Source: a virus. From it: 27,733 bases of DNA. The stretch lies in IMG/VR virus record IMGVR_UViG_3300012931_000064, positions 1 through 27,733 of that record. The stretch is one strand, 5' to 3'. This document shows positions 25,956 through 27,733 of this stretch, piece after piece; the stretch's first letter is position 1; each line of letters starts with the position of its first letter. Made by a program: the position numbers and the translations under genes. Below the pieces are notes generated by a model. That model was not told the origin of the DNA and did not search any database. It saw nothing but the letters and a program-made list of their open reading frames with translations.

Positions 25956-26037
25956 AACTTGGCACGATATAAGTCCCAACTATTTGTCGACTTGGCACGG
26001 TATAAGCATAGCCACGACTTGGCACGATTTATGTCCC
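25956..26037 (+). repeat. Three CTTGGCACG direct repeats
   Basis: CTTGGCACG recurs exactly at 25958, 25991 and 26018, each followed by [A/G]T[A/T]TA-type bases (GATATAAG, GGTATAAG, GATTTATG). The first and third continue with TCCC after a T or GT. TTGGCACG equals the -24 element of sigma-54 promoters, but only the second copy has GC ten bases after GG, and the -12 TTGC is not conserved. They may be degenerate sigma-54 promoters, iterons, or sites for a phage regulator. Confidence 0.7.
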
Positions 26038-26193: not shown

Positions 26194-26238
26194 AATCGCA
26201 TTGGCAGGGATGGTCCCGCTGATGAAAGGAAAGAAAGT

Positions 26239-26520
26239 ATGGTAGTAGTTACGAGACACAAGGCACTGGTCGCGCTCCTCGTGGAGCGTGGACTAGTCCC
26301 GGAGGGGACTCCGGTTCTGGAGCACGCGACGGCTCTCGACGTTCGCGGGCAGGACGTGATCGGTGTCCTGCCGCTCTCGCTCGCTGCGGAGTGCCGCAGC
26401 GTAACCGAGGTTCCGCTGAACCTCACCCCGGCTGACCGGGGGAAGGAATTAGACCTTCCCCGCCTCCGGGAAATAGCAGGTGACGCGGTCACGTACCGCG
26501 TCACCAAGGAGGTCGCATGA
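26239..26520 (+). CDS. Csx16-like protein, candidate anti-CRISPR ring nuclease
   Basis: 93 aa from the ATG at 26239, which has AAAGGA upstream; a longer frame from 26173 would start inside the promoter. It resembles the CRISPR-associated Csx16 family (VVA1548-type): an opening strand VVVTRH (2-7), then GQDVIGVLPLSLAAE (37-51) and PLNLTPADRGKEL (59-71), in the same order and at the family's usual length of about 90-100 aa. Csx16 is associated with type III CRISPR loci and proposed to degrade cyclic oligoadenylate messengers. In a phage it would be expected to switch off host type III signalling, like the viral ring nuclease AcrIII-1. This assignment is from recalled motifs, not a search. The coding DNA is packed with stem-loops. 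Confidence 0.65.
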   Translation: MVVVTRHKALVALLVERGLVPEGTPVLEHATALDVRGQDVIGVLPLSLAAECRSVTEVPLNLTPADRGKELDLPRLREIAGDAVTYRVTKEVA

Positions 26521-26531
26521 TAGCGACCTCC
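26508..26531 (+). promoter_or_regulatory. Start-codon hairpin of the second early gene
   Basis: GGAGGTCGC (26508-26516) pairs perfectly with GCGACCTCC (26523-26531). The loop ATGATA begins with the start codon, and the Shine-Dalgarno GGAGG is buried in the stem. The stop of the Csx16-like gene (TGA) is also in the loop, so upstream ribosomes would open it: a translational-coupling switch. Confidence 0.8.
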
Positions 26532-26750
26532 CGGAACAAACAGTTCATCGCAGCCCTGCGCATCGTGCGCAAGGCTGCGATCTTCCGCGTCGCCTTCGCG
26601 ACGCTGCGCGACGACAGCCTTGAAGTCGTCGCGCAGTTCCCGGTCGTGATGACCGGGGAAAAGGTGCGTCATCCGATGACGCGCCAGCAGGCACTGAAGA
26701 GCCTGCTCTTTGGGCGTGTATATCACGCCCGCGAAATGGGGGTCGTATGA
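26517..26750 (+). CDS. Unknown small basic protein, 77 aa
   Basis: It overlaps the Csx16-like stop by 4 nt and the next start by 4 nt. The product is basic with a helix-rich N-terminal half (NKQFIAALRIVRKAAIFRVA), followed by strands (LEVVAQFPVVM) and MTRQQALKSLLFGRVYHARE. The coding DNA consists largely of the stem-loops described for this region, which may constrain the protein sequence. No family recognised; its coupling suggests it works with the Csx16-like protein. Confidence 0.6.
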   Translation: MIATSRNKQFIAALRIVRKAAIFRVAFATLRDDSLEVVAQFPVVMTGEKVRHPMTRQQALKSLLFGRVYHAREMGVV

Positions 26751-26760
26751 TTACGACCTC
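26739..26760 (+). promoter_or_regulatory. Start-codon hairpin of the third early gene
   Basis: GGTCGT (26741-26746) pairs with ACGACC (26753-26758), extended by a G-T and a G-C pair. The loop ATGATT starts with the ATG at 26747. This repeats the architecture of the hairpin at 26508-26531, with the G-rich ribosome-binding stretch again in the 5' arm. Confidence 0.75.
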
Positions 26761-27058
26761 AAAAAACAGCGCAGGTGACATCACCTGCGCTGAAGGCCGG
26801 GTCTCGATCACGATACCCGGAAAAGTGACGAGCGCGAGGCTCGTCGAAAAGCTCCGCGCGGCCCGCGCGGACTTCTCGGGCCGCGAGTGCGACCCGCATG
26901 ACGGCTGGATCGCGGCCCGATCCAGCGAAAGCCGCCGTGTCGAGCGGCTCCTCCGAGCCGTACTCGCCGCTCGGGGGATCAACGATCCCTTGGGCGAAGA
27001 CGCCGACGAGATCGCGCGGCTCGACAGAATCGCGCGGATTGCAGAATGGAACCGATGA
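26747..27058 (+). CDS. Unknown small protein, 103 aa
   Basis: It starts in the stop of the preceding gene (ATGA). The N-terminus (MITTSKNSAGDITCAEGRVS) is strand-like; from about 30 the chain is helical and charged (SARLVEKLRAARADFSGREC, RVERLLRAVLAARGI), ending DEIARLDRIARIAEWNR. A DNA- or RNA-binding role is possible from charge alone. The first three genes begin alike (VVVTRH, MIATSRN, MITTSKN), partly because they share the start-codon hairpin design. No family recognised. Confidence 0.6.
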   Translation: MITTSKNSAGDITCAEGRVSITIPGKVTSARLVEKLRAARADFSGRECDPHDGWIAARSSESRRVERLLRAVLAARGINDPLGEDADEIARLDRIARIAEWNR

Positions 27059-27158: not shown

Positions 27159-27230
27159 CACAGCCGAAACGCCGAGAGGCGTCTGCGGGAGATAACCACC
27201 CCGCACCGATGAGGCAGGTTGCCGAAACAT

Positions 27231-27335: not shown

Positions 27336-27733
27336 AATCAAACTAACATTAGGAAGTATCCGTGCTGCGAACCCATGCAGCAACGCATGGGAAGCCAAGG
27401 CACTCGCGTATCTGCATGAGTCATGGAACGACACCCGCGAGGTGACGTTCGCGGACATCGTGGCATCGTGCGGGCTGGACGCGGCGCTGTTCTGCCTGCG
27501 CTGCCTGCCGGAGTCAGAGCAATGGCGGTCGCGGCTGTTTGCGCGTTGGTGCGCACTGTCGGTCATCCATCTTTGGGATGCACCCGAAGTAGTAAAAGAT
27601 TATCTATCCGGCGGCGGGGAAAGTCTTCGGGCGGCGGCAGGGGCGGCGGCAGGGGCGGCGGCAGCGGCGGCGGCAAGGGCGGCAGGAGAGGCGGGCGCGG
27701 CCGGGGCGTCAGGGGCGGGCTCGGCGGCATGGC
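27328..27733 (+). CDS. Alanine-rich phage protein, 5' part (runs off window)
   Basis: The frame from ATG 27328 stays open to the last base, 135 codons. Residues about 40-85 (VTFADIVASCGLDAALFCLR, then RLFARWCALSVIHLWDAP) match a recurrent, functionally uncharacterised phage protein with the pattern GLDxALWxLRx and LFAxxCARxVxHL. That protein carries an Ala-rich tail like the one here. From residue 102 the chain is Ala/Gly-rich, encoded by a 12-bp tandem repeat. The 3' end is outside the window. Confidence 0.65.
   Translation, partial: MTEIKLTLGSIRAANPCSNAWEAKALAYLHESWNDTREVTFADIVASCGLDAALFCLRCLPESEQWRSRLFARWCALSVIHLWDAPEVVKDYLSGGGESLRAAAGAAAGAAAAAAARAAGEAGAAGASGAGSAAW
27340..27400 (+). repeat. 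Isolated stem-loop CCCATGC / GCATGGG
   Basis: A 7-bp perfect stem with a 6-nt loop lies in the early codons of the Ala-rich gene (CCCATGC near 27373, GCATGGG near 27386). It stands alone, in contrast to the dense series upstream. Confidence 0.4.
27631..27678 (+). repeat. 12-bp tandem repeat GCGGCGGCAGGG, four copies
   Basis: Copies begin at 27631, 27643, 27655 and 27667. The first two are identical and the last two have one or two changes. The repeat is in frame and encodes AAAG units, so copy-number change would alter the length of the Ala-rich tail without breaking the frame. Confidence 0.9.

Follow-up and report, generated by a model that had tools for sequence, protein, structure and literature searches.

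The gene trio and its hairpin array

The DNA analysed here, called the window, is IMG/VR record IMGVR_UViG_3300012931_000064 at its full 27,733 nt. It belongs to a tailed phage, with genes for an HK97-type capsid and protease and a terminase on the opposite strand, contractile-tail genes that resemble those of Mu-like phages, and a baseplate J-like protein that matches phage baseplate J proteins. Leucine-rich-type repeats occupy its left end (14-562) and a GGCGGCAGGGGC repeat at the right end (27640-27733) runs off the record, which is probably a fragment.

Three overlapping genes, all rightward, lie at the right end of the window and are joined by ATGA overlaps: a csx16-like gene (26239..26520, + strand; 93 aa), orf2 (26517..26750, +; 77 aa) and orf3 (26747..27058, +; 103 aa). 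Searches for relatives of orf2 and of orf3 found none. The protein of the first gene scores 52.9 bits against Pfam PF09652 (Cas_VVA1548, Csx16; cut-off 25) and 16 bits against NCBIfam TIGR02620 (cut-off 46), and judged from these profiles it appears to be a divergent branch of Csx16. Its AF2 model is confident (pLDDT 94.8), and a PDB structure search with this model, in which a CARF-like fold was sought, gave no significant match. Two further elements flank the trio. The divergent intergenic region at 25957-26036 holds a motif of about 16 nt in three nearly identical direct copies (TTGGCACGATATAAG and variants), spaced by about 33 and 27 nt, that look operator- or iteron-like. Directly 3' of the operon, at 27162-27223 (+), the Rfam model of the type II hammerhead ribozyme matches below its threshold (29.7 bits vs a gathering score of 37, E 2e-4); the core CUGAUGA reads CCGAUGA there.

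A tandem hairpin array lies inside the three reading frames (26272..26980, +). With a perfect hairpin defined as an arm of at least 6 bp and a loop of 3-9 nt, we counted 25 in 26239-27058, nine of them with arms of at least 8 bp and three with arms of at least 10 bp, in agreement with the roughly 25 inverted repeats, about nine of them with 8 bp or more, described in an earlier note on this DNA. The three stems named there were all recovered by the stem search, namely 11 bp with a 5-nt loop in csx16 (26479..26505, +), 12 bp with a 9-nt loop in orf2 (26604..26636, +) and, in orf3, 12 bp with a loop of 2 nt or 11 bp with a 4-nt loop (26767..26792, +). The chance expectation given in the note, one to a few stems, was of the right order but somewhat low: 2000 synonymous-codon shuffles of the trio, which preserve protein sequence and codon usage, had a mean of 5.6 stems and a maximum of 14, and never more than four with arms of at least 8 bp. 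Hairpins cover 0.58 of the trio (0.70 of csx16 from 26272 on and 0.71 of orf2), compared with 0.31 in the highest of the 2000 shuffles. The array was also said to start and stop with the trio, and it is indeed confined to the operon, but it sets in 33 nt into csx16 and fades out at about 26980, which leaves the last 78 nt of orf3 outside it. Its reported absence from neighbouring genes held: coverage is 0.00 over the 340 nt upstream and 0.06 over the 270 nt downstream, and elsewhere in the window, clear of the array, there are 0-7 stems per 720 nt.

The hairpins of the array have no common sequence, and we therefore rejected an inserted palindromic repeat element as their source. In csx16 and orf2 a codon-order null gives fewer stems than the synonymous null, indicating that the amino-acid sequences of these two genes have probably been shaped by structure as well, besides codon choice.

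Folding energies lead to the same picture. The check proposed earlier, a comparison with codon-preserving shuffles, placed csx16, orf2 and orf3 at 4.6, 7.1 and 5.5 SD below their shuffles (synonymous z of -4.6, -7.1 and -5.5); the energies of the trio are -145, -142 and -159 kcal/mol, and 0 of 300 synonymous shuffles reached the observed value in any gene. Four control genes elsewhere in the window have z between -0.8 and 1.5. GC content alone was rejected as an explanation, because composition is kept in the synonymous shuffles and GC-rich neighbours have z of about 0. Opening a 30-nt site in the trio costs 17.6 kcal/mol vs 14.0 in shuffles (z 9.7), and opening an 8-nt site 4.5 vs 4.1 kcal/mol (z 3.9); the longest unpaired run in the predicted fold is at most 9 nt.

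The fold also distinguishes the three start sites. The ribosome-binding site of csx16 (AAGGAAAGAAAGTATG; 26226..26241, +) is predicted to be open, with a mean unpaired probability of 0.77 vs 0.27 at the junction hairpin GGAGGTCGC-ATGATA-GCGACCTCC (26508..26531, +), which carries the Shine-Dalgarno of orf2 in its stem and the orf2 ATG in its loop. The hairpin GGGGTCGTA-TGAT-TACGACCTC at the start of orf3 (26738..26760, +) has the same arrangement. With both start codons in hairpin loops and the Shine-Dalgarno in the stem, the model makes local translational coupling at the orf2 and orf3 starts likely, and it is in this local form that the translational control suggested in the note gains support. 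Only csx16 would then have an open ribosome-binding site, while translation of orf2 and orf3 would be coupled to that of the gene before, the arriving ribosome melting the hairpin at each junction. An open csx16 start followed by two buried downstream starts, as modelled, would make most sense for a translated RNA.

Folding of csx16 genes in other viruses

Work from 2025 showed that a cellular member of the Csx16 family degrades cA4, the alarm molecule most often used by type III CRISPR, and reported Csx16 in two of 28,114 phage genomes (PMC12409355). Our profile scan of IMG/VR yielded 41 viral csx16 loci (L004, L020-L058), which suggests that viral Csx16 is commoner than the two reported phages and makes it a plausible anti-CRISPR. 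Cellular members of the family act in type III CRISPR as ring nucleases for cA4, and family membership therefore makes the phage copy studied here a likely anti-CRISPR. The possibility that viral csx16 genes are parts of type III loci was rejected, since 40 viral and plasmid records with csx16 gave no RAMP hit (PF03787) above the cut-off; in these records the viral genes sit outside such loci. The gene occurs on plasmids too, and in uncultivated viruses it is sometimes fused or duplicated (L004 4584-5273 and L047 5331-6293).

We compared 37 distinct viral csx16 genes, whose proteins are mostly 40-70% identical. Every one of them (37/37) folds better than the mean of its own synonymous shuffles, with a mean z of -3.55 on the coding strand and -2.74 on the complement. 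On the same contigs, genes more than 1 kb from csx16 have a mean z of -0.78 (p 9e-12 vs csx16) and those within 1 kb -1.85; these control ORFs come from mechanical gene calling, and some of them are spurious antisense frames. The coding segments of MS2, used as a positive control, gave mean z of -4.48 and -3.58. Viral csx16 is thus folded to near the level of MS2, and the window trio lies at or beyond that level. The effect is weak in some csx16 viruses, for instance L035, L058 and L048.

Small genes of phage D3 (mean z -0.22) and lambda (-0.81), and the viral Lar anti-restriction family (0.05), led us to reject a general feature of small phage genes. The most structured of the 14 lambda genes tested was the restriction-alleviation gene ral (L072 1088-1288; z -3.8). 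Copies of AcrIII-1, likewise a viral cA4 ring nuclease, lack structure in crenarchaeal viruses (one at -1.7), and bacterial phages give a mixed picture (z -4.4, -2.2, -0.3 and -1.1); the unstructured crenarchaeal copies limit any rule for viral ring nucleases.

Structure might belong to csx16 wherever the gene lives, our comparison set being viral, plasmid and archaeal copies. It would then be a property of the family in cells as in viruses, serving for example autoregulation or dosage control. The plasmid and archaeal copies are structured to varying degrees (z -7.9, -3.3, -3.0 and -1.3), in keeping with such a property, but neighbours that belong to other families are structured as well in the viral islands described below, and we regard this explanation as rather improbable. 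Genome scans for cellular csx16 in type III loci found none. The copy on the Deinococcus plasmid pDEIPR02 (L019 5992-6276) folds better on its coding strand (z -7.9) than on the complement (-2.8) and lies among unremarkable neighbours.

Hairpin islands, strand signature and helix turnover

In ten viral contigs the position of csx16 is among the most hairpin-dense windows (combined rank p 1.6e-9); for most of these contigs the peak 600-nt window is no more than about 1.3 kb away from the gene. A 261-kb phage (G027) has a single hairpin island of about 9 kb around csx16, containing csx16, a Csx16-repeat fusion and DUF4326, macro and NADAR genes. Its genes on one strand at about 74.7-82.9 kb have z from about -2 to -11 and those beyond 83.3 kb are near 0; some structure is also present at 69-73 kb. 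The DUF4326 gene of the island has z of -7.8, vs a mean of -0.80 for DUF4326 genes in other viruses and plasmids. Hence structure follows the island, not the gene family, and a property of the accessory families was rejected. In the same phage (L047 3405-9984) at least seven copies of a gene leader of about 92 nt, with a CCCCAAAG...CTTTGGGG hairpin beside the Shine-Dalgarno, head the island genes.

These islands bear on the main rival to an immune reading, in which the structure serves general stabilisation and regulation independently of type III immunity. It could guard the message against housekeeping RNases (RNase E, 3' exonucleases), keep Rho away, or enforce strictly coupled translation. 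A leader hairpin next to a Shine-Dalgarno is a known stabilising arrangement, and the repeated leaders of the G027 genes agree with this rival, as do the junction hairpins that sequester the downstream start sites of the trio and the structured csx16 neighbours that have no known CRISPR role. On the other hand, ordinary small genes do without such structure, whether they lie in these phages or in others, as does the anti-restriction family, and the association tracks csx16 islands across unrelated viruses. As the explanation, general stabilisation and regulation of this kind seems somewhat unlikely.

Whether the structure acts in RNA or in DNA was judged from strand signatures. In the window trio neither strand folds better than the other, and few pairs are G-U, as would be expected if the segments passed through a single-stranded DNA stage or served recombination, with the hairpins forming in DNA. 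Two other observations lean the same way, the presence of csx16 on plasmids and the cassette-like look of intergenic repeats in L004 and L047. However, the structure of MS2 is necessarily that of RNA and yet shows almost as much strand symmetry as the trio, so symmetry there does not discriminate RNA from DNA. The csx16 family does show a preference for the coding strand, which folds better than its complement in 27 of the 37 viral copies (p 4e-4; distant genes p 0.75). Moreover, single-mismatch hairpins within 1 kb of csx16 have G-U rather than A-C on the coding strand in a ratio of 47:18 (p 9e-5), a count that includes a contribution from intergenic terminators; the ratio in distant regions is 41:28. 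The non-coding DNA beside the trio lacks such hairpins, and the csx16 start is predicted to stay open, both of which also speak against selection on DNA. We thus consider selection on structure at the RNA level quite likely and selection at the DNA level improbable.

What is conserved among csx16 homologues is hairpin density; the individual helices mostly are not. The gene is constrained to fold, but not into any one structure. Helix positions are common to homologues more often than in shuffles, but weakly at low identity, and the excess of compensatory changes is only about 5%. An Rfam search returned no family over threshold. On these three grounds a specific conserved RNA element of the riboswitch kind was rejected. 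The alignment of homologues, put forward earlier as a way to refute the observation if proteins were kept and pairing was not, had a divided outcome: most individual helices are lost and the compensatory excess is small, but the homologues build dense structure elsewhere in the gene, which speaks against a single defined RNA element and favours ordered structure of a generic kind. Turnover of helices with kept density fits a generic armour better than a riboswitch or a protein-binding element.

Perfect stems whose positions turn over between homologues could also be produced by a mutational process in which template switching within quasi-palindromes keeps making perfect inverted repeats of no function. 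The hairpins are restricted to particular genes in many unrelated viruses and absent from adjacent non-coding DNA, while the Csx16 protein stays conserved and a strand signature is present. We consider such a process very improbable.

Possible role in counter-defence and comparison with known systems

We infer an immune purpose for the structure of the trio. For the type III pathway it is established that the complexes read transcripts by means of long guides and that cA4 activates RNases (PMC12409355, PMC10702470). The mRNA of the trio would have been selected, via codon choice and in part the choice of amino acids, for a fold of closely spaced local hairpins. Its first gene would make a Csx16 ring nuclease that destroys cA4. 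In type III systems guides of 30-40 nt recognise viral transcripts, and cA4 then activates ribonucleases attacking single-stranded RNA, so the message for the off-switch would be the one that has to stay intact during the alarm. Near-complete pairing would offer few binding sites to guides and few cutting sites to RNases, and a ribosome could still open the hairpins one at a time. The Csx16 message would profit on both counts, from the costlier opening of 30-nt sites and from the short unpaired runs of the predicted fold.

Shielding from RNA-targeting immunity or RNases, which the note had proposed next to translational control and a structured RNA that is also coding sequence, is supported by the Csx16 family match and by structure in distant viral csx16 genes, though not proven. 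A counter-defence operon whose ordered mRNA structure keeps the message translatable under type III immunity, by hiding targets, by resisting cA4-activated RNases or both, is the reading we tentatively adopt, at slightly below an even chance. The broader proposition, that DNA viruses armour their counter-defence mRNAs as continuous hairpins, escaping RNA-guided recognition and alarm-activated RNases so that the antidote can be made after the alarm, is possible but more tentative still. If the armour reading is true, viruses have a second layer of counter-defence in the mRNA and not the protein, which would explain how the antidote is produced in a cell that type III CRISPR has already filled with cA4 and RNases, and hairpin density in coding DNA would mark unknown counter-defence genes, such as orf2, orf3 and the genes of the G027 island. 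Apart from any immune purpose, dsDNA phages have predicted RNA structure that is ordered, gene-local and at the level of ssRNA phages, and it recurs with one gene family across distant viruses. A search of the open literature found no comparable gene-local structure, and nothing to the point on RNA structure evading type III.

Several known systems share some of these features. The viral ring nucleases AcrIII-1/Crn2 and Csx16 offer the likeness of a small viral protein that, by sequence, appears to belong to a cA4 ring-nuclease family; PMC12409355 concerns the protein, and we found no mRNA structure described there. Like the trio, Rickettsia palindromic elements place hairpins within reading frames. 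Those elements are inserted into genes as copies of one repeat, whereas the trio hairpins have no common sequence and are not such copies.

Genome-scale ordered RNA structure (GORS) of RNA viruses retains its density while helices turn over. Viral csx16 and the trio resemble it in a folding energy beyond codon-preserving shuffles and in a density that is conserved when individual helices are not. Its coding RNA is folded well beyond shuffles, a property linked to persistence (PMC3695492). GORS spans whole RNA genomes, while here a coding segment of 0.7-9 kb in a dsDNA virus is involved and the structure consists of short perfect hairpins tied to one gene; being local to an operon or island and not genome-wide, it falls outside GORS in the whole-genome sense.

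In MS2, start sites are opened by translation of the preceding gene. The phage is also alike in folding energy relative to synonymous shuffles (mean z -4.5). The claim that a hairpin density of this kind is known only from ssRNA phage genomes is accordingly right in so far as the folding energy of MS2 is equally extreme, but MS2 has only about 3 perfect short hairpins per 820 nt vs 25 in the trio, some 8-fold fewer per length, and its structure serves a packaged RNA genome.
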